Origin: Ideonella oryzae
GTDB taxonomy: Bacteria > Pseudomonadota > Gammaproteobacteria > Burkholderiales > Burkholderiaceae_C
Length of the DNA: 33,476 bases
Direction of reading: 5' to 3'
Assembly: GCF_024055665.1 (NCBI RefSeq)
Contig: NZ_JAMXMC010000020.1
Span: 1 to 33,476, forward strand
Each line of letters opens with the position of its first letter. Position 1 is the stretch's first letter. Positions 7,757 to 16,640 of the stretch are shown here, piece after piece. The notes under the pieces were generated by a model. That model saw only the letters and a list, made by a program, of their open reading frames with translations. It was not told where the DNA came from and did no database searches. The translations under genes and the position numbers were made by a program.

Positions 7757-8171
7757 GCGGCCGCCCCTGCACCCAGGGCAGCTGCCAAAAATCGTCAGCC
7801 CCGGGTGGGGCGGACAGGAATGGGTGACATTTCCCGGCACTCCTCGGGGCTGCCGAGGCATTCCCGCCGGCTTTCCGCCGGTTCTTCGCCATGGATGGGG
7901 TTTGATGGCTGCACCCCACCACGCCGTGCTGCCCAGGGCGCACCGTGCCGAAATGCTGGGTTGGCTGAGATTCCATTTGCAGGTGGTTGCAATTTATTCG
8001 CGATGTGCTCCGTTCTGGCACGTCGGTTGCGTGTTTCGTCGCCATGTCAAAGCGGCTTCCGAAGTGTTTCCATGGTGTCGGCTCGCCCTCGGTGACTGAG
8101 AAACAGAACCGGGCTTGACCCATTGCCTGCCCTTCCATGCCCATTGGGGTATTGGAATTCAACGAAATACC
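7757..8171. other. 415-base intergenic region without a gene
   Basis: No convincing coding frame was found. The stretch holds a stem-loop, CCTCGG-GGCTG-CCGAGG, at 7842-7858; a small dyad, TTGCA-N6-TGCAA, at 7977-7992; and the sigma-54-like promoter listed separately. The composition drops to lower GC around 7960-8060, as expected for a promoter. The long leader between the stem-loop and the promoter could hold enhancer sites for an activator, but none was recognised. Confidence 0.6.
8016..8030 (+). promoter_or_regulatory. Sigma-54 (RpoN) type -24/-12 promoter
   Basis: TGGCACG-TCGG-TTGC matches the RpoN consensus TGGCACG-N4-TTGC at every fixed position. The GG at 8017-8018 and GC at 8029-8030 have the required 12-base offset. 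It is preceded by C, as in the YTGGCAC form. Transcription would begin near 8042, giving an untranslated leader of about 130 bases before the di-heme oxidoreductase ATG. No enhancer-binding activator gene is in the window. The match was made by eye; its function is inferred. Confidence 0.6.
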
Positions 8172-11126
8172 ATGCATTACCCAAAGCCCAGGCAGAGCGC
8201 TGCCTTGACCCATCTCCAACGCTGGGCGACCCTCGGCTCCCTGCTGGCGCTGGCACAGGTGCTGACGGCCTGCGGCGGTGGTGGCGGCAGCACCCCGTCG
8301 TCAGAGGCCCCGGCCCCTGCACCCGCGCCCGCACCGACACCTGCCCCCGCCCCGTCGACCGACCCGGTGCTGGAGCCCCCGCCCGCGGCGCCTGCGCCCT
8401 CGCTGCCCAGCACGTCCGATCAGCAGCGCCTGCCGTCGCCCCCGGCGCAGCTGCAGCTGCCCGTGGGTGTCGACACGAGCCAACCGGGCATCGCCGTGCG
8501 GCCCCTGACCGCCACCTCGTCGGCCACCGCCAACTCCACCAACACTGCGTCCAAGGCGATGGACGGCGACGGCACGACCCGCTGGGAAAGTGCCTACACC
8601 GACGACGCCTGGATCCAATTCGACTTCGGTGCCAAGACACAGCTCGGCTATATGAAGCTGGTCTGGGAAAACGCATACGGCAAGGAGTATGTGATCGAGG
8701 TTTCCGACGACGGATCGACCTGGTATCAGCTGCGCTACGTCATCGGCGGGCAGGGCGGCACGCAGGAGTTTTTCAATCTCAATGCCAACGTCCGTTATGT
8801 TCGGCTGCAGGGTGTGGCCCGCGGCACGCAATATGGGTATTCGCTGTTCGAGGTGAGTTTCGCCTCCCCGGGCAGCGACAACTCGATCAGCCGGGCGGTC
8901 ACCTCGGCCGCGCCATTTCCACCCAATGGGGGCGCACTGGCGTCCCCCGCCCCTGCGGCCCCGCTGGAAACCACCCAGTTCCAGCTGGCCGATGGCACGC
9001 TGGTGACCCGCTTCGGCTTCGTGGGCCGCTCGCGCCACGGGCGCGAGCGCGGCGAGGACTGGAACGAGATCGGCTTCGGCCCGAACGACACCGTGGACAG
9101 CGCGGGTCGCCCCCAGGACAAGGGGCCCGGCGCCTACCTCAACTTCGTCGCCAACTACTTCAAGAACCGCACCTGGGGCGTGGAGATCATCGACAACAGC
9201 CAGGTGGCTGGCGTCACCGCACCCCGCCTGATCGTCAACCAGTACTACCAGCAGGCGCAAAGAGGCGGCGGGCAGTCCTTCGTCCGCCGCTTCGACGATG
9301 CGCACGTCACTGGCTACGGGTGGATGAGCCCGGGCACGCTGCTGGACAACAGCACCTACACCGCCGGCTTCAACGACATCGCGGCCTGCCCCGTGGTGCC
9401 CAAGCCGCCCGATGGCGCCCTGCTCAAGCCCACCAGCGGCTACAACGGCATCGTGGGGGCCAACGATGGCTGCAGCGTCGTGTTCGACACCTACCCGGGG
9501 CACGCGGACCTGTCGCCCAACGGCGATGGCGTGATGGTGCCCAACGGCAGCACCGTGCCGGCGCGTTCGCTGCGCCAGGGCGATGTCATCGAGTTCACCG
9601 GCTCCTTCTTCTCCACCCGTGCCGCGATGGACGCCATCGGTGACAGCGGCGCCTTTCGCTACTACACCAACGAGCTGACCTACGTCATCGGCGCGGGCCT
9701 GCGGCCCTCGTATGGCGTGCAGCCCCGGCTGATGAATGCGCCCCTGCCGCCCGAGACCCTGCAGGGCGGCCTGGGCTCGGTGTCCTACGACTACGCCGAC
9801 AACGCCACCTTCATGTTCCAGCAGCCGTACAACAACATCGGCATGCAGAACATGCAGCGCTTCGTCGAAGGCCGCCGCTGGGTTCACACCAACATGTGGA
9901 CGGGCGACCACAACGAACCTGGCAACGACCGCAACGAGGCCGCCGTCAAGCTGCAGGGGCCGCGCTTCAACCAGTCCTCCTGCTTCGGCTGCCACATCAA
10001 CAACGGGCGCAGCGCGGCCCCCAGCGTCGTCAACCAACTGCTGGACACCATGGCCGTGCGCACCGCCATGGTCGGCACCGATGGCCAGCAGCGGCCCGAC
10101 CCGGTCTACGGCCTGGCCGTGCAGATGCACGCTCGCTCGGCCGCCACGGGCGCGCTGCAGGATTGGGGCACCGGTGTGCGCGTGGCCGGCTTCGACACCA
10201 GGACCGTCACGCTGGCCGATGGCGCCGTGGTCGAGCTTTCCAAGCCACGGATCGCCTTCGATGGCGTGACGCCCGAGGTGTATTCCCTGCGAAGCGCTCA
10301 GCCGATGATCGGCATGGGCCTGCTCGAGGCCGTGCCCGACGCCGACATCCTGGCCCGGGTCCGCAGCACGCCGGACGCCGACGGCGTGATGGGCCGTGCC
10401 AACTTCGCCTACGACCCCGAGACCGGCGCGGTGCGCCTTGGCCGCTATGGCTGGAAGGCGGCCAAGGTGAGTCTGCGCCATCAGGCGGCCAACGCCTTGC
10501 TGCTCGACATGTCGGTCACCTCGCCCGTCTACCCCAGCCGGTCCTGCCTGACCGATGCCGCCAACTGCCACAGCGGTGCGGCGGCCAACGGCATCCCGGA
10601 GGACGCGCTGACCCTGGCCACCCGCTACCTGGGGCTGCTGGGCGTGCCGGCCCAGCGCAGCCTGAGCAGCGGCTTCCCCAAGGGCGTGACGCCGCTGCCC
10701 TATCTGCAGGTGGATCCCGCCCAGGTGACCCGGGGGGCGCAGCTGTTCGCCCAGGCGCGCTGCACGGCCTGCCACATCAGCGAGATGAAGACCGGCCTGG
10801 GCACCGAGCTGACCGAAGCCCGCAACCAGACCATCAAGCCCTACACCGACCTGCTGCTGCACGACATGGGCAGCGACCTGGCCGACGGCCTGGTGGAGGG
10901 GCAGGCCAGCGGCAACATGTGGCGCACCTCGGCCCTGTGGGGCATCGGCTACAGCCAGCGCGTGGCCGGCAGCACCACCATCGGTTACCTGCACGACGGC
11001 CGCGCCCGCAACCTGACCGAGGCCATCGTCTGGCATGGCGGCGAGGCGGCGGCCAGCCGGCAGCGCTTCGTGGGCTTCTCCAAGGCCGACCGCGACGCCT
11101 TGCTGGCCTTCCTCAACTCTCTGTAA
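8172..11126 (+). CDS. Di-heme oxidoreductase (DHOR/DUF1111-like) lipoprotein with N-terminal discoidin-like domain
   Basis: A protein of 984 residues. A lipoprotein signal ends at the lipobox LTAC (C34), followed by a glycine run and a Pro-Ala linker. Residues about 109-232 resemble a discoidin (F5/8 type C, CBM32-like) jelly roll, with TRWESAYTDDAWIQFDFG and YVIEVSDDGSTWYQLRYV. The large C-terminal part resembles di-heme oxidoreductases of the DUF1111 family. It has two c-type heme motifs, CFGCH (C604, C607, H608) and CTACH (C864, C867, H868), plus GTELTEARNQTIKPYTDLLLHDMG and a DGRARNLTEAI stretch typical of peroxidase-like cytochromes. It should be exported and lipid-anchored, with heme attached in the periplasm. 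ATG 8172 is preferred over the TTG at 8115 because the signal peptide follows it. The gene for a GH128-like hydrolase starts five bases after its stop. Fusion of a carbohydrate-binding-like domain to a di-heme enzyme is unusual. Confidence 0.85.
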   Translation: MHYPKPRQSAALTHLQRWATLGSLLALAQVLTACGGGGGSTPSSEAPAPAPAPAPTPAPAPSTDPVLEPPPAAPAPSLPSTSDQQRLPSPPAQLQLPVGVDTSQPGIAVRPLTATSSATANSTNTASKAMDGDGTTRWESAYTDDAWIQFDFGAKTQLGYMKLVWENAYGKEYVIEVSDDGSTWYQLRYVIGGQGGTQEFFNLNANVRYVRLQGVARGTQYGYSLFEVSFASPGSDNSISRAVTSAAPFPPNGGALASPAPAAPLETTQFQLADGTLVTRFGFVGRSRHGRERGEDWNEIGFGPNDTVDSAGRPQDKGPGAYLNFVANYFKNRTWGVEIIDNSQVAGVTAPRLIVNQYYQQAQRGGGQSFVRRFDDAHVTGYGWMSPGTLLDNSTYTAGFNDIAACPVVPKPPDGALLKPTSGYNGIVGANDGCSVVFDTYPGHADLSPNGDGVMVPNGSTVPARSLRQGDVIEFTGSFFSTRAAMDAIGDSGAFRYYTNELTYVIGAGLRPSYGVQPRLMNAPLPPETLQGGLGSVSYDYADNATFMFQQPYNNIGMQNMQRFVEGRRWVHTNMWTGDHNEPGNDRNEAAVKLQGPRFNQSSCFGCHINNGRSAAPSVVNQLLDTMAVRTAMVGTDGQQRPDPVYGLAVQMHARSAATGALQDWGTGVRVAGFDTRTVTLADGAVVELSKPRIAFDGVTPEVYSLRSAQPMIGMGLLEAVPDADILARVRSTPDADGVMGRANFAYDPETGAVRLGRYGWKAAKVSLRHQAANALLLDMSVTSPVYPSRSCLTDAANCHSGAAANGIPEDALTLATRYLGLLGVPAQRSLSSGFPKGVTPLPYLQVDPAQVTRGAQLFAQARCTACHISEMKTGLGTELTEARNQTIKPYTDLLLHDMGSDLADGLVEGQASGNMWRTSALWGIGYSQRVAGSTTIGYLHDGRARNLTEAIVWHGGEAAASRQRFVGFSKADRDALLAFLNSL

Positions 11127-12178: not shown

Positions 12179-12208
12179 TTGCCTTCACTTGTGATTGGTA
12201 AATAGAAT
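12179..12208 (+). promoter_or_regulatory. Sigma-70-like promoter of the heme/flavin operon
   Basis: TTGCCT (12179-12184) and TAGAAT (12203-12208) form -35 and -10 candidates with an 18-base spacer. They match the consensus at four and five of six positions. Transcription would start near 12215, about 26 bases before the GTG start of the peroxidase gene. The -10 element is overlapped by a Fur-like box. Confidence 0.5.
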
Positions 12209-12221
12209 GCGAACCATTCTT
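12203..12221. promoter_or_regulatory. Fur-like box over the -10 region
   Basis: By eye, the 19-mer at 12203-12221 agrees with the classical Fur consensus at 12 of 19 positions. Its core is AATGCGAACCATTC, with a GAATG/CATTC dyad. It covers the -10 element and the expected transcription start, the usual position for iron-dependent repression. The downstream operon would then be expressed under iron limitation. Confidence 0.6.
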
Positions 12222-12240
12222 ATTAATACCCACACCACCA

Positions 12241-13458
12241 GTGAACACCACCGCGCTTGTGACGTCCGGCCTGGCCCTGTGCCTGGCCCTGGCGGGTTGC
12301 GGAGGGGGCTCGGCCAGCACCGCCACCTCCGGCAGCTCCAGCACCACGCTGTCCGCCCAGGCCGAACTGGGCCGGAAGATCTTTGCCGACACCTCGCTGT
12401 CGGCCTCGGGCCAGCAGGCCTGCGCCAGCTGCCACGACCCTGAGAACGGCCACGCGCCGTCCAACGCGCTGGCGGCCCAGATGGGTGGCGCCGACATGAC
12501 GTTGCAGGGCGGGCGCAACTCGCCCTCTATCCGCTACCTGCAGACCAACACGGCCTTCTACTTCGCGGCCGATGGCACGCCCACCGGCGGCTTCTTCTGG
12601 GACGGCCGCGCCGCCTCGCTGAAGGACCAGGCCAAGGGCCCTTTCCTGAACCCGGTGGAGATGGCCAACACCAGCGTGACCGAGGTGGTGGCCAAGCTGG
12701 CCGCCGCGTCCTACGCGGCGGAGTTCAAGACCGTCTTCGGCGCGGACATCCTCACCCGCCCGGCCGACGCCTTCGACCGCATGGCCCAGGCGCTGCAGCA
12801 GTACCAGCTGGAGGACAGCGAGTTCCACGCCTACACCAGCAAGTACGACGCCTTCCTGCGCGGGCAGACCACGCTGACCGAGCAGGAGACCCGCGGCCTG
12901 GCCCTGTTCAACAGCGCCACCAAGGGCAACTGCGCGGGCTGCCATCCGTCCTCGCAGTCGCCCAACGGCGCCCTGCCGCTGTTCACCGACTTCACCTACG
13001 ACGTGCTGGGCGTGCCCCGCAACACCGAGCTGGGCCAGAACGCCGACGCCAGCTACTTCGACCTGGGCCTGTGCGCCCGCTCGACCGGCGACCTGACGGC
13101 CCGCACCGACCTGTGCGGCGCCTTCAAGGTGCCCAGCCTGCGCAACGTGGCGCTGCGCAAGGCCTTCTTCCACAACGGCTACTTCAAGACGCTCAAGGAC
13201 GCGATCACCTTCTACGTCCAGCGCGACACCAACCCCGAGAAGTTCTACCCCGTGGGCAGCGACGGCACGGTGCAGAAGTTCAACGACCTGCCCGCGGCCT
13301 ACCACGCCAACGTCAACACCACCGAGGTGCCCTACAACCGCAAGCCCGGTGACGCCCCGGCCCTGAGCGACAGCGAGATCGAGGACGTCATCGCCTTCCT
13401 CAACACGCTGACGGACGGCTGGAGCAGCACGTCCTCCACGGCCAGCACCTCGCGCTGA
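12241..13458 (+). CDS. Di-heme cytochrome c peroxidase / MauG family lipoprotein
   Basis: A protein of 405 residues from GTG 12241. A lipoprotein signal ends at LAGC, so it should be anchored in the cell envelope. Two c-type heme sites are visible, CASCH (C61, C64, H65) and CAGCH (C231, C234, H235), as in bacterial di-heme peroxidases and MauG. Family motifs include FFWDGRAASLKDQAKGPFLNP, KVPSLRNVALRKAFFHNG and, at the C-terminus, LSDSEIEDVIAFLNTLT. Canonical members reduce hydrogen peroxide or oxidise a partner protein. Which applies here is unknown. No Shine-Dalgarno sequence is visible before the GTG, and the frame is closed by a TAA at 12199, so this start is nearly forced. It is the first gene of a five-gene operon under a Fur-like box. 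Confidence 0.9.
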   Translation: MNTTALVTSGLALCLALAGCGGGSASTATSGSSSTTLSAQAELGRKIFADTSLSASGQQACASCHDPENGHAPSNALAAQMGGADMTLQGGRNSPSIRYLQTNTAFYFAADGTPTGGFFWDGRAASLKDQAKGPFLNPVEMANTSVTEVVAKLAAASYAAEFKTVFGADILTRPADAFDRMAQALQQYQLEDSEFHAYTSKYDAFLRGQTTLTEQETRGLALFNSATKGNCAGCHPSSQSPNGALPLFTDFTYDVLGVPRNTELGQNADASYFDLGLCARSTGDLTARTDLCGAFKVPSLRNVALRKAFFHNGYFKTLKDAITFYVQRDTNPEKFYPVGSDGTVQKFNDLPAAYHANVNTTEVPYNRKPGDAPALSDSEIEDVIAFLNTLTDGWSSTSSTASTSR

Positions 13459-13511
13459 ACGGCCTGTTCCCCCTTCCAAGACAGCAGACACCCAACCCAA
13501 GGACACCCACC

Positions 13512-14834
13512 ATGCACCCGCTGACCCGCTCCGCCCTGGCCCTGGCGGCCGCCCTGGCCGTGGCCGGCCCCGCCGCCGCCCAGGCCGCCACCCCGCAGGA
13601 AGAGGCCCTGGCCCGCAAGGTCGACCAGCTGGCCGCCGAACTGGCCACGCTGAAGGCCCAGCTGGCCGAACTGGCCCAGGCCCGTGCCAGCACCGCCGCG
13701 GCCCCTGCCGCACCGGCCACCGCCGCCGCCCCGACCGCCGCACCCGCGGTGGCGGCCGCGCCCGAAGCCGCCACCGGCGAGCCCGCCACCGTGCTGGGCG
13801 GCTACGCCGAGCTGACCTACAACCGGCCCCAGCACGCGGGCCAGGACACCACCGCCGACGTCGCCCGCTTCGTGCTGGCCTACCAGCACCGCTTCGACGA
13901 GAAGACCAAGGTGGTGACCGAGCTGGAGGTGGAGCACACGGTGAGTTCGGCCGATGACCCGGGCGAGGTGGAGGTGGAGCAGGCCTTCGTCGAGCACCAG
14001 TTCCTGCCCAACTGGGCCGCCCGCGGCGGTCTGTTCCTGATGCCCGTGGGCCTGCTCAACGAGAACCACGAGCCCAACGCCTACTACGGCGTCATGCGCA
14101 ACTTCGTCGAGACCGCCATCATCCCCACCACCTGGCGTGAAGGCGGCCTGCAACTGGCTGGCACGCTGGACGACGGCTGGACCGTGCAGGCCGGCGTCAC
14201 CACCGGCTTCGACCTGAGCAAGTGGGACGCCACCGCCGAATCCGAAGGGCAGGAATCCCCGCTGGGCTCCATCCACCAGGAGCTGGCGCTGGCCAAGGCG
14301 CGCGACCTGTCCGTCTTCGGCGCCGTCAACTGGCGCGGCATCCCCGGCCTGCAGCTGGGTGGCTCGGTCTTCACCGGCAACGCCAGCCAGGGCCAGACCA
14401 CGCAGAACGTCAGCGGCCGCGTCACCCTGTGGGACCTGCACGCCCGCTGGACGCCCGGCGCCTGGGACCTGTCGGCCCTGTACAGCCGCGGCACCATCAG
14501 CAACACCGCGCGCCTGAACAGCACCCTGCTGGGCAGCGCCGTGCTCATCCCCGAGCGCTTCGACGGCTGGTACACCCAGGCCGCCTACCACCTGTGGCAA
14601 TCGGGCAGCTACGCGCTGGCGCCCTTCGCCCGCTACGAGCAGTACAACACCGGCCGCAGCTACGCCAACCTGGGCGCGGGCGTGACCCCGGCCGGTCTCA
14701 AGACCGAGAAGGTCTGGACCGTGGGCGCCAACTTCCAGCTCACGCCGGGCGTGGTCGTCAAGGCCGACCTGCAGCGCTTCGACGAGAACAGCAACGCCAA
14801 CCGGCTGGACCTGGGCCTGGGCTGGAGCTTCTGA
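13512..14834 (+). CDS. Porin-like outer-membrane beta-barrel protein
   Basis: A protein of 440 residues from ATG 13512, with AAGGA ahead of the start. A signal peptide ends near AAAQA. Residues about 30-56 form a short heptad coiled coil (EEALARKVDQLAAELATLKA) followed by an Ala-Pro linker. The remainder alternates polar and aromatic residues and ends in GLGWSF with a C-terminal phenylalanine, the usual signal for barrel insertion. Stretches such as GGLFLMPVGLLNENHEP resemble OprP/OprO-type or general porin-superfamily proteins that are often left unnamed. The substrate is unknown. It ends in TGATG, overlapping the next gene by one base, which ties it to the flavin genes and suggests import of the substrate handled by them, possibly iron. 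Confidence 0.8.
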   Translation: MHPLTRSALALAAALAVAGPAAAQAATPQEEALARKVDQLAAELATLKAQLAELAQARASTAAAPAAPATAAAPTAAPAVAAAPEAATGEPATVLGGYAELTYNRPQHAGQDTTADVARFVLAYQHRFDEKTKVVTELEVEHTVSSADDPGEVEVEQAFVEHQFLPNWAARGGLFLMPVGLLNENHEPNAYYGVMRNFVETAIIPTTWREGGLQLAGTLDDGWTVQAGVTTGFDLSKWDATAESEGQESPLGSIHQELALAKARDLSVFGAVNWRGIPGLQLGGSVFTGNASQGQTTQNVSGRVTLWDLHARWTPGAWDLSALYSRGTISNTARLNSTLLGSAVLIPERFDGWYTQAAYHLWQSGSYALAPFARYEQYNTGRSYANLGAGVTPAGLKTEKVWTVGANFQLTPGVVVKADLQRFDENSNANRLDLGLGWSF

Positions 14835-15379
14835 TGCGCTTCTGGGTCACAGCCGCCGCCATGGCCAGCGCATCTCCCGCCGCCTTCGCGGTGGACTACC
14901 TCAGCGCGGACCAGGCCGCGCAGCTCATCTTCCCCGAGGCCGACCACTGGGACAGCAGCACGCTGGCGCTGGACGCGGCCCAGCTGCAGGCCCTGGACGC
15001 CGCCGGCGCCAAGGGCCGCTCCGCGCGCTGGGAGCTGCGCACGGCCCGCAAGGCCGGCGCGCTGCTGGGCTGGGTGCTGCTGGACAACGTGGTGGGCAAG
15101 TACGAGCTCATCAGCTACGCCGTGGGCCTGGACCGCGAGGGCGCCATCCGCGGGGTGGAGATCCTGTCCTACCGCGAAAGCCATGGCAGCGAGATCCGCC
15201 TGCCGGCCTGGCGCAAGCAGTTCGTCGGCAAGAACGCCAGCGCCCCGCTGCGCGTGGGCAGCGACATCGCCAACATCAGCGGCGCCACCCTCAGCTGCAG
15301 CCATGTGACCGACGGCATCCGCCGCATCGTGCAGGCGGTGGACGTGGCCCGGCGCGGGCAACCCGCATGGGCCCGCTGA
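14834..15379 (+). CDS. Exported FMN-binding-domain protein, predicted flavinylated
   Basis: A protein of 181 residues with a short signal peptide (cleavage near AAFA-VDY), so periplasmic. The FMN-binding domain carries SGATLS at 149-154. T152 is the predicted attachment site of a phosphodiester-linked FMN, as in NqrC/RnfG-type domains. Conserved surroundings include LLDNVVGKYELISYAVGLDREG and GVEILSYRESHGSEI. The gene starts inside the porin stop (TGATG) and overlaps the ApbE gene by 13 bases. The immediate ApbE neighbour strongly supports covalent flavinylation. It would shuttle electrons between the membrane protein and a periplasmic acceptor such as the di-heme peroxidase or an iron species; the acceptor is inference. 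Confidence 0.88.
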   Translation: MRFWVTAAAMASASPAAFAVDYLSADQAAQLIFPEADHWDSSTLALDAAQLQALDAAGAKGRSARWELRTARKAGALLGWVLLDNVVGKYELISYAVGLDREGAIRGVEILSYRESHGSEIRLPAWRKQFVGKNASAPLRVGSDIANISGATLSCSHVTDGIRRIVQAVDVARRGQPAWAR

Positions 15380-16176
15380 ACGCCCCGCCGGCCGGCGGCT
15401 GGGTACGCCGCGCCCGGCCGCTGCTGGGCACGCTGGTGGAGGTGGGCCTGCCCCTGGCCGCGCCCGCGGGGGGCGCCACGCACGAGGCCGCCTTCGCGGC
15501 GGTCTGGGCCCTGCTGCAGGACATCCAGGCCCAGCTCTCCATCTTCGACCCCGGCAGCGATCTGTCGCGCCTGCATGCCGCGCCGCCGGGCACCCGCCTG
15601 AGCGTGCGCTCCCACACCGCGCGCGTGCTGACGGCTGCCCGCCACTGGGCCAGCCTGAGCGACGGCGCCTTCGACCTGGCCCAGGGCAGCGGCCCCTGGC
15701 ACTGGGACGGCACCCGGCTGTGGCGCGAGCACCCCCACACCCGCCTGGACGCGGGCGGCCTGGCCAAGGGCGACGCCATTGACCAGGCCGTGGCCCGGCT
15801 GCAGGCCCAGGGCTGGCCGGCCGGCTGGGTGAACGCGGGCGGCGACCTGCGCGTCTTCGGCCCGCTGCGCCTGCCGCTGGTGCTGCGCGACGAAGCCCAG
15901 GGCGGCACCCGCGCCTGGGGCTGGCTGGAAGACGGCGCCGCCGCCACCAGCCATTTCGGTCCCGGCGCACGCAGCCGACTGCACAGCCCCGCAGGCGGTG
16001 CGCCCATTCACACCCACCTGAGCGTGCTGGCCCCCACCGCCCTGGCGGCCGACGCGCTGACCAAGGTGCTGGCCCAGCAGCCTGAGTTGCCGACCGCCTG
16101 GCTGGCCGGCCTGGGCGCGCACGCCGTCTTCCATGACGCCACGGCGCCACAACCCCTGGCGGAGGTCGCGCCATGA
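15367..16176 (+). CDS. apbE: FAD:protein FMN transferase (ApbE family)
   Basis: A protein of 269 residues that would transfer FMN from FAD to the threonine of the SGAT motif in the preceding gene product. Motifs: RPLLGTLVEV at the N-terminus, LDAGGLAKGDAIDQA (127-141), VNAGGDLRVFG (155-165), and LSVLAPTALAADALTK with D229 as the probable Mg-binding aspartate. It is shorter than the usual 320-350 residues, and no signal peptide is seen at this start. No alternative upstream start was found in the codons checked. The target appears to be exported, so flavin transfer either occurs before export or this enzyme leaves by an unrecognised route. It overlaps the FMN-binding gene by 13 bases and the next gene by four bases. 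Confidence 0.9.
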   Translation: MGPLNAPPAGGWVRRARPLLGTLVEVGLPLAAPAGGATHEAAFAAVWALLQDIQAQLSIFDPGSDLSRLHAAPPGTRLSVRSHTARVLTAARHWASLSDGAFDLAQGSGPWHWDGTRLWREHPHTRLDAGGLAKGDAIDQAVARLQAQGWPAGWVNAGGDLRVFGPLRLPLVLRDEAQGGTRAWGWLEDGAAATSHFGPGARSRLHSPAGGAPIHTHLSVLAPTALAADALTKVLAQQPELPTAWLAGLGAHAVFHDATAPQPLAEVAP

Positions 16177-16640
16177 GCCCCGGCCACCGCCACGCCGGCA
16201 TGGGCCGGGGCCTCAAGCGCATGGTCTGGCTGAGCAGCGCGCTGCTGTGGGCCAGCGGCCTGGGCTGGTGCGCGCTGCACTACACCGTGGGCGCGGGCGG
16301 GGCCGAAGGCCTGCCGCACCCGGCCGAGCCCTGGCTGATGAAGCTGCATGGCCTGGCCCTGTTCCTCAACCTGATGGCCCTGGGCGCGGTGGTGGCCCAG
16401 CACTTGCCGCCGGGCTGGCGCATGGGCCAGCGCCCGGCCTGGCGCGGCCAGCGGCGCACCGGCCTGTGGCTGGGCAGCCTGTTCATCGCCCTGGTGGCCA
16501 GCGGCTACCTGCTCTACTACTTCGGTGGTGAAGACTGGCGGCCCACGCTGGACGGCGTGCACATTGCCGCCGGCGTGCTGCTGGCCGTGCCGCTGCTGTG
16601 GCACACCGGCCGCCGCCGCGCGGCCCGCGCCATGCCCTGA
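16173..16640 (+). CDS. Four-helix membrane protein, DUF4405-like putative b-type cytochrome
   Basis: A protein of 155 residues with four hydrophobic helices (about 17-39, 56-78, 96-117 and 127-146). Histidines lie in or at the ends of helices: H36, H59, H77, H130 and H144. These could hold one or two b-type hemes, as in flavinylation-associated cytochromes of the DUF4405 group. The family assignment is by topology and context only. It starts with an ATGA overlap with apbE, so it is the last gene of the five-gene unit. It would feed electrons from the quinone pool across the membrane to the flavinylated periplasmic protein. It has no other recognised domain. Confidence 0.72.
   Translation: MSPGHRHAGMGRGLKRMVWLSSALLWASGLGWCALHYTVGAGGAEGLPHPAEPWLMKLHGLALFLNLMALGAVVAQHLPPGWRMGQRPAWRGQRRTGLWLGSLFIALVASGYLLYYFGGEDWRPTLDGVHIAAGVLLAVPLLWHTGRRRAARAMP

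Follow-up and report, generated by a model that had tools for sequence, protein, structure and literature searches.

The stretch of DNA described here, referred to as the window, is 33,476 nucleotides long and constitutes an entire contig (NZ_JAMXMC010000020.1; C13) of the 4.7 Mb genome of Ideonella oryzae. It carries an operon of five forward-strand genes, which is read here, with moderate confidence as to function, as a Fur-repressed periplasmic ferric reductase that would feed FeoB and would have a dedicated porin and an optional peroxidase. The first gene (12241..13458) encodes a di-heme peroxidase of the lipoprotein, BthA/MauG-like type and the second (13512..14834) an outer-membrane porin of 16 strands with an N-terminal helix and probable acidic strand faces. 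These are followed by genes for a flavin mononucleotide (FMN)-binding protein with a signal-peptide-like N-terminus (14834..15379), an ApbE-like protein that lacks both a signal peptide and the HxxDPxTG motif (15367..16176), and a four-helix membrane protein that is a putative diheme cytochrome b (16173..16640). A preliminary description of the locus had placed these genes in this order with overlaps of 1, 13 and 4 bases, and the open reading frame list agrees; in the same list, the peroxidase and porin genes are separated by 53 bases.

Immediately upstream, a sigma-70-like promoter is predicted at 12179..12208 on the forward strand (-35 TTGCCT, -10 TAGAAT, spacer of 18; 9/12 in a consensus scan). 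Its -10 element is overlapped by a palindromic Fur-like box, AATGCGAACCATTCTTATT, at 12206..12224 on the same strand. The preliminary description had likewise seen such a box over the -10, at 12203-12221; the match lies three bases 3' of that position. The box is identified by its consensus score, by a pattern match and by the sites of relatives.

Conservation of the operon and its Fur-like box

When GTDB genomes were scanned using the FMN protein as query, 156 stretches were returned, 120 of which encode a relative, and the best 80 were kept. These 80 loci are mostly from Burkholderiales and are related, not independent; among the named relatives recovered, Ideonella sp. B508-1 comes nearest, with an FMN protein of 98% identity. 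The FMN protein, ApbE and cytochrome genes occur in order in 71/80 loci, and all five genes do so in 44/80, when stop-to-stop frames are read. The corresponding counts are 60 and 36 with the simple codon-usage gene caller that supplied the gene starts, which misses genes. Median gaps are 23 bases from peroxidase to porin, 9 from porin to FMN protein, -4 from FMN protein to ApbE and 6 from ApbE to cytochrome. A strain-specific gene set is rejected, since the order recurs in these loci. Scattering of the homologues, named in the preliminary description as one outcome that would speak against it, was not seen, and both gene order and Fur-like sites are shared. The FMN protein was found at E <= 1e-15 in 61/399 genomes of the order, and its profile at E <= 1e-20 in 9/274 genomes of the class, with the own genome counted.

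The upstream part of the operon varies. Directly ahead of the FMN protein gene, 65 of the 80 loci have the porin gene, 14 have a member of a barrel cluster and one has a different gene. In the 14, which fall between L069 and L094 and include Polynucleobacter, the barrel gene (e.g., L071:5090-5977) replaces both peroxidase and porin; the single member that was profile-checked is a DUF6662 protein. Ahead of the porin is the di-heme peroxidase in 45 loci, a cluster with TIGR03118 members in 6 (L032, L048, L054, L058, L061 and L068), another gene in 7 and the contig end in 7. The TIGR03118-type protein takes the place of the peroxidase; two of its six members were checked, one of which has a weak twin-arginine translocation (Tat) signal match. 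In two of the seven loci with another gene, the hit was to a peroxidase fragment only (L035:3411-3875 and L060:1370-1606).

Fur-like sites were scored between positions -300 and +60 relative to the gene that begins the operon, using a threshold of >=15/19 and three assumed variants of the betaproteobacterial Fur consensus. The scoring covered 73 of the 80 loci, as seven were dropped for want of upstream sequence or of a fit. A site was found in 61/73 loci and in 43/46 of those that begin with the peroxidase; the box of the window, read on the near-identical locus L015, scores 16/19. By comparison, such sites were present in 1/1460 dinucleotide shuffles and ahead of 3/207 other gene starts in the same loci, two of these three genes being feoA. 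A chance origin of the box is rejected on these two controls. A degenerate Fur pattern with <=3 mismatches is expected 0.02 times per shuffle across the whole window, and as this pattern was shaped to include the site of the window, the 0 mismatches there are by construction. The independent test of the box is the consensus scoring in relatives. With the box positioned at the promoter and conserved in relatives, repression by Fur is, at the level of sequence, the best explanation for the site.

In the I. oryzae genome, the degenerate pattern occurs at five places, with zero matches for the reversed control. Besides that of the operon, a ferritin-like gene and a TonB receptor gene each have one upstream, another lies between CRP-family and DUF2061 genes, and the last could not be assigned. 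The feoA gene of this genome has a 15/19 site by consensus score and is absent from the list of pattern matches. For the Fur-like site at C1:399931, the neighbor gene could be assigned no iron function. The Fur-boxed TonB receptor at C28:283042 has another ApbE gene about 5 kb on (C28:288396), which is possibly a PepSY-type flavinylation cluster.

The redox proteins, the porin and the ApbE-like protein

The FMN-binding protein matches PF04205 (FMN_bind; 4.5e-8) and, in the PDB, RnfG/NqrC, and it has a domain of the Rnf/Nqr type. The SGATLS motif that had been claimed for it is present at 15278-15295 and contains T152 (codon 15287-15289), the expected flavinylation site. Residues T152, G150, A151 and S154 are each found in 45/45 homologues and S/T149 in 44/45, and T152 is predicted to carry covalent FMN. 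In a review of ApbE, an Asp belongs to the flavinylation motif, D-x-x-[S/T]-G-A-[S/T] (PMC12052999). Here, Asp is at the expected position 146 in 1/45 homologues and at position 144 in 34/45. Signal peptides were judged from hydropathy and by eye: the copies in the 80 loci have a hydrophobic N-terminal stretch in 63 and an AxA sequence in 60. The FMN proteins of L072, L081 and L088 have a twin-arginine-like signal unlike that of the rest, with feoB and a FUR-family gene nearby.

The membrane protein had been described as a four-helix protein with five histidines. Its AlphaFold2 model bears out the four helices (predicted local distance difference test score, 90.5); the protein has eight histidines in total, of which five (36, 59, 77, 130 and 144) lie within predicted helices. 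H59 and H77 on helix 2 and H130 and H144 on helix 4 are each present in 56/56 homologues and H36 in 50/56, an arrangement that suggests the binding of two b hemes, paired and stacked. At E <= 0.1, 34/56 homologues match DUF4405 (best, 4.3e-7) and 25/56 match Ni_hydr_CYTB (prokaryotic cytochrome b561). A profile search against PDB sequences gave matches at chance level (best E, 0.23). The Foldseek matches of the model are unspecific four-helix bundles, among which a hydrogenase cytochrome b ranks fifth (E 0.54).

The peroxidase matches PF03150 (CCP_MauG; 1.5e-41), and its nearest solved relative is BthA (PDB 6nx0; 5.8e-76). The two CxxCH heme sites on a lipoprotein that had been proposed earlier were located as C61ASCH and C231AGCH (12421-12435 and 12931-12945), and a lipobox-type Cys20 is present. 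When mapped on the alignment to 6nx0 and 6v59, the Tyr325 ligand, Glu140, Cys278 and Cys292 are found in 48/48 sequences, the window included. The interheme position 120 is W in 24, R in 16, H in 6 and L in 2 of the 48, and position 306 is R in 45, K in 2 and G in 1; the window has W120 and R306. Thus, the Tyr ligand and paired Cys of the BthA class are present, and its interheme Ser257 and its Lys444 are not.

The porin model (score, 87.9) has 16 strands in addition to the N-terminal helix, and its Foldseek matches include OprP at rank 2 and OprO at ranks 7 and 13. In Pfam, the porin of the window matches BBP2/Porin_4 below the cut-off, and 32/52 homologues match Porin_O_P at E <= 0.1. Residues E137, E139 and E156 are present in 52/52 homologues, E141 and E152 in 51/52 and E154 in 22/52. 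As judged by strand alternation and not by coordinates, E137/E139/E141 and E152/E154/E156 would form acidic strand faces. These suggest cation passage, unlike in OprP, whose entry title names an arginine ladder. A conduit of the MtrAB type, for extracellular electron transfer, was considered and rejected, since the porin is similar to diffusion porins and there are just two hemes in the c-type protein.

The ApbE-like protein presents a puzzle. Its family assignment in the preliminary description holds (PF02424, 3.1e-24) but the canonical HxxDPxTG motif is missing. Attachment of FMN by ApbE outside the cytoplasm, as had been assumed, is therefore hard to apply in a simple way, the protein being both leaderless and without this motif. 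HxxDPxTG is found in 0/76 copies from the loci, against 4/4 canonical copies read. In an alignment, His occupies the catalytic-His column in 2/31 operon copies versus 3/3 canonical copies of the own genome. In the same alignment the catalytic Ser and Asp229 are each present in 31/31 operon copies, as is Lys233; the equivalence of the Asp is loose, as its column reads G, E and D in the three canonical rows. The first LGT-type motif lies <=12 residues from the called start in 49/76 copies and 13-31 residues in 22, the remaining 5 being other or none. By this start-to-motif spacing, the export or lipoprotein signal of canonical ApbE was not found in the operon copies.

To place the operon copy among the ApbEs of whole genomes, 20 of the 61 FMN-positive genomes were picked by us, with small ones preferred. 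No ApbE besides the operon copy was found in 15/20, five of which have this copy split into two pieces of a single frame; the 15 include one genome of 80% completeness and several draft genomes. None of these 15 sole copies has HxxDPxTG (0/15). For 13/15, extending the frame back to the preceding stop gives 9-23 residues before the LGT-type motif, and these stretches are not strongly hydrophobic (highest 10-residue hydropathy, 1.36); the other two have 43 and 89 residues. Each of the 15 genomes has a single FMN_bind match (loci L116-L130), and SGAT[LM]S proteins were recovered in 12/15 of these loci, with a signal-like N-terminus by eye in 12/12. The invariance of Ser, Asp229 and Lys233, together with the finding of no further ApbE in the 15 genomes, makes simple decay of this ApbE unlikely.

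Either the flavin is attached before export, or else it is not attached as assumed. It is tentatively suggested that the protein is a new type of flavin transferase, which resides in the cytosol, lacks both the signal peptide and the His base, and attaches FMN to T152 prior to export. If so, the cell would export a covalent flavoprotein instead of exporting flavin adenine dinucleotide to a periplasmic ApbE. Most FMN proteins would leave by Sec, and those few whose signal is twin-arginine-like by Tat. A cytosolic fumarate reductase is known to be served by cytosolic ApbEs (PMC12052999), and in those parts of the open-access literature that were searched, no cytosolic ApbE serving an exported target was found described. 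In a 2021 survey of flavinylation, genes for which no signal was predicted were excluded when genomes were counted (PMC8238504). The question posed for flavinylation is how a signal-less ApbE serves an exported protein when the genome shows no other ApbE.

Iron linkage and competing explanations

Genes for feoA/feoB are found in 15 of the 80 loci, which total 865 kb (representatives were Pfam-confirmed). They lie on the same strand downstream of the cytochrome gene, divergent upstream of the peroxidase gene, or convergent. FeoB (E <= 1e-30) is present in 50/61 genomes with the FMN protein versus 157/338 others (Fisher p 2.6e-7, kinship ignored), assuming that both scans drew the same 399 genomes. 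The genes for FeoB and the FMN protein are 2-14 kb apart in at least five genomes; in I. oryzae, feoAB is on another contig and has its own Fur-like site. Further neighbors are a FUR-family gene in 4 loci (L048, L072, L081 and L088; three Pfam-checked), a ferritin-like cluster in 4 (one checked, L034:7947-8423, downstream of the operon) and a TonB-receptor cluster in 4 (L027, L049, L051 and L055; L049:773-2950 Pfam-checked). Neighbor clusters such as c11 and c16-c30 are outside the annotation, and other transporters may be missed.

The preliminary description had proposed an iron-starvation redox system; the conservation of the gene set, the Fur-like site and a redox function linked to iron are supported. 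It had left the acceptor as iron or the peroxidase. Of the two, ferric reduction gains support because feoA/feoB adjoin the operon in 15/80 loci. The case for the peroxidase as terminal acceptor is weaker, as some loci have it replaced or lack it and yet keep the core of FMN protein, ApbE and cytochrome.

The proposed mechanism builds on what is observed, namely the genes, their order and conservation, the Fur-like sites, the feo linkage and the conserved residues. When iron falls, Fur would dissociate from its box (12206-12224), allowing expression of the operon. Beyond expression, we infer the direction of electron flow, the substrate and the functions of the porin and the peroxidase as follows. 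Two b hemes would be stacked across the inner membrane, with H59/H130 on the periplasmic side and H77/H144 on the cytoplasmic side. Electrons from quinol would pass through these hemes to the covalent FMN on T152 of the exported protein, and in the periplasm the reduced FMN would reduce Fe3+, either as such or in a weak chelate. The porin would admit the iron, and FeoB would import the resulting Fe2+. The lipoprotein peroxidase may act as an optional safety partner, which removes H2O2 beside the fresh Fe2+ and limits Fenton chemistry. If correct, the operon is a candidate dedicated ferric reductase for FeoB-based uptake in a broad, mostly Burkholderiales group, and BthA-like di-heme peroxidases are thereby placed in an iron-starvation operon. 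To our knowledge, a dedicated ferric-reductase partner of FeoB is usually not known.

Several observations weigh against this proposal. Fur-like sites of >=15/19 are absent from 12/73 loci, and Fur also controls non-uptake genes, so that the box alone is no proof of uptake. In 65/80 loci there is no feo gene within the fetched stretch. The membrane protein of the window matches DUF4405 at 0.0066, which is under the Pfam cut-off, and its model gave zero Foldseek matches at E <= 0.001. The location of ApbE and the loss of its motif leave FMN attachment unexplained. Finally, 11/61 FMN-positive genomes lack FeoB at E <= 1e-30, and the TonB-receptor neighbor in Collimonas fits chelate uptake as well as it fits Feo.

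The last two points also favor an explanation in which a siderophore or other Fe3+ chelate is reduced in an FsrB-like or PepSY-like manner, and iron enters by several transporters and not by FeoB specifically. The Fur-like control of the operon suits this explanation, and in the Collimonas loci (L049, L051 and L055), three of the four with the TonB-receptor cluster, the gene of this cluster is divergent from the operon. In addition, a connection with iron reduction has been made for PepSY/DUF2271/ApbE clusters that Fur regulates (PMC8238504). However, feo is the commoner uptake neighbor among the annotated clusters (15/80 loci versus 4/80 for the TonB-receptor cluster), and chelate reduction of this kind is considered rather unlikely.

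Peroxide respiration, in which the chain of quinol, cytochrome b and FMN ends at the di-heme peroxidase and protects iron-starved cells from H2O2, is unlikely. It would account for the position of the peroxidase gene directly ahead of the porin in 45/80 loci and for the invariance of Glu140, Tyr325 and both Cys, and BthA is reported to turn over H2O2, its role being called undiscovered (PMC6405878). Yet the 14 loci with the DUF6662-cluster barrel before the FMN protein gene have no peroxidase, and the porin is preceded by the TIGR03118-cluster protein in 6 loci and by other genes in 7; that the peroxidase is optional argues against an end-of-chain role. Peroxide respiration also leaves the feo linkage unexplained. 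A modification of the MauG/BthA type, in which the di-heme enzyme would oxidize residues in either the porin or the FMN protein, with the other gene products relaying electrons for this maturation, is very unlikely: the MauG-like Tyr ligand position is invariant, an interheme Trp occurs in half of the sequences and the gene adjoins the conserved porin, but porin and FMN protein also occur without the di-heme enzyme and position 120 varies.

Outside of the recurring gene set, the window contains a gene for a large di-heme oxidoreductase (DHOR) with an F5/F8 discoidin domain upstream of the operon (8115-11126). Downstream of the operon is a gene that we take to encode a flavin monooxygenase. Neither was found to recur beside the operon in other clusters.

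Comparison with known systems

No description of the five-gene set was found in the open-access literature, subscription papers and supplementary tables being outside the search; the supplementary cluster tables of both flavinylation papers (PMC11334425 and PMC8238504) may contain members. The operon is classed here as a variant of ApbE-linked flavinylated electron transfer, marked by its Fur/Feo link and its unusual ApbE. The words peroxidase and porin are absent from the main text of either paper.

The DUF4405 systems (Huang et al. 2024; PMC11334425) likewise cluster apbE with a flavinylated protein and a small, His-rich membrane cytochrome. A link to iron, which in those systems is through FezC, is common to both. 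DUF4405 is described as six-transmembrane and is often found with Flavodoxin_4 substrates (PMC11334425). In contrast, the operon has a cytochrome of four helices, an FMN_bind substrate, a porin, a di-heme peroxidase, a Fur-like box and feo neighbors. Membership in the DUF4405 systems is not claimed because the model has four helices and not six; by analogy, the operon may work like them.

The PepSY-like clusters (Meheust et al. 2021; PMC8238504), including Caulobacter CC3059-3063 (PMC3751524), resemble the operon in being Fur-repressed and in having ApbE and an exported flavinylated protein. They also have a transmembrane protein that has been proposed for iron reduction. Assignment of the operon to the PepSY system is rejected, as no match to PF03929/PF16357 or DUF2271 was found at E <= 0.01 in the five proteins.

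The peroxidase shares with BthA of Burkholderia thailandensis the Tyr ligand position, the Glu acid-base residue and the surface Cys pair (PMC6405878). The site of Lys444 in BthA is also basic in the operon enzyme, but is Arg306, and Ser257 of BthA corresponds to Trp120. Furthermore, the operon enzyme has a lipoprotein-type N-terminus and is encoded in a Fur-boxed operon, whereas bthA is reported with a phosphatase partner.

Separate steps of the proposed route are known from elsewhere. EfeUOB also has a peroxidase in a ferrous uptake system (PMC9174327), although EfeU and EfeO domains were not found at E <= 0.01 in the five proteins. The OmpC/FeoB route of Escherichia coli has porin entry ahead of FeoB (PMC7315122) and FsrB-FeoAB of Bradyrhizobium has periplasmic reduction ahead of FeoB (PMC10760861), both with other proteins; in the parts of these papers drawn on, neither is described as one operon. 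Together, OmpC/FeoB, FsrB/FeoAB and EfeUOB may be regarded, by analogy, as precedents for the single steps of the ferric reductase route proposed for the operon.

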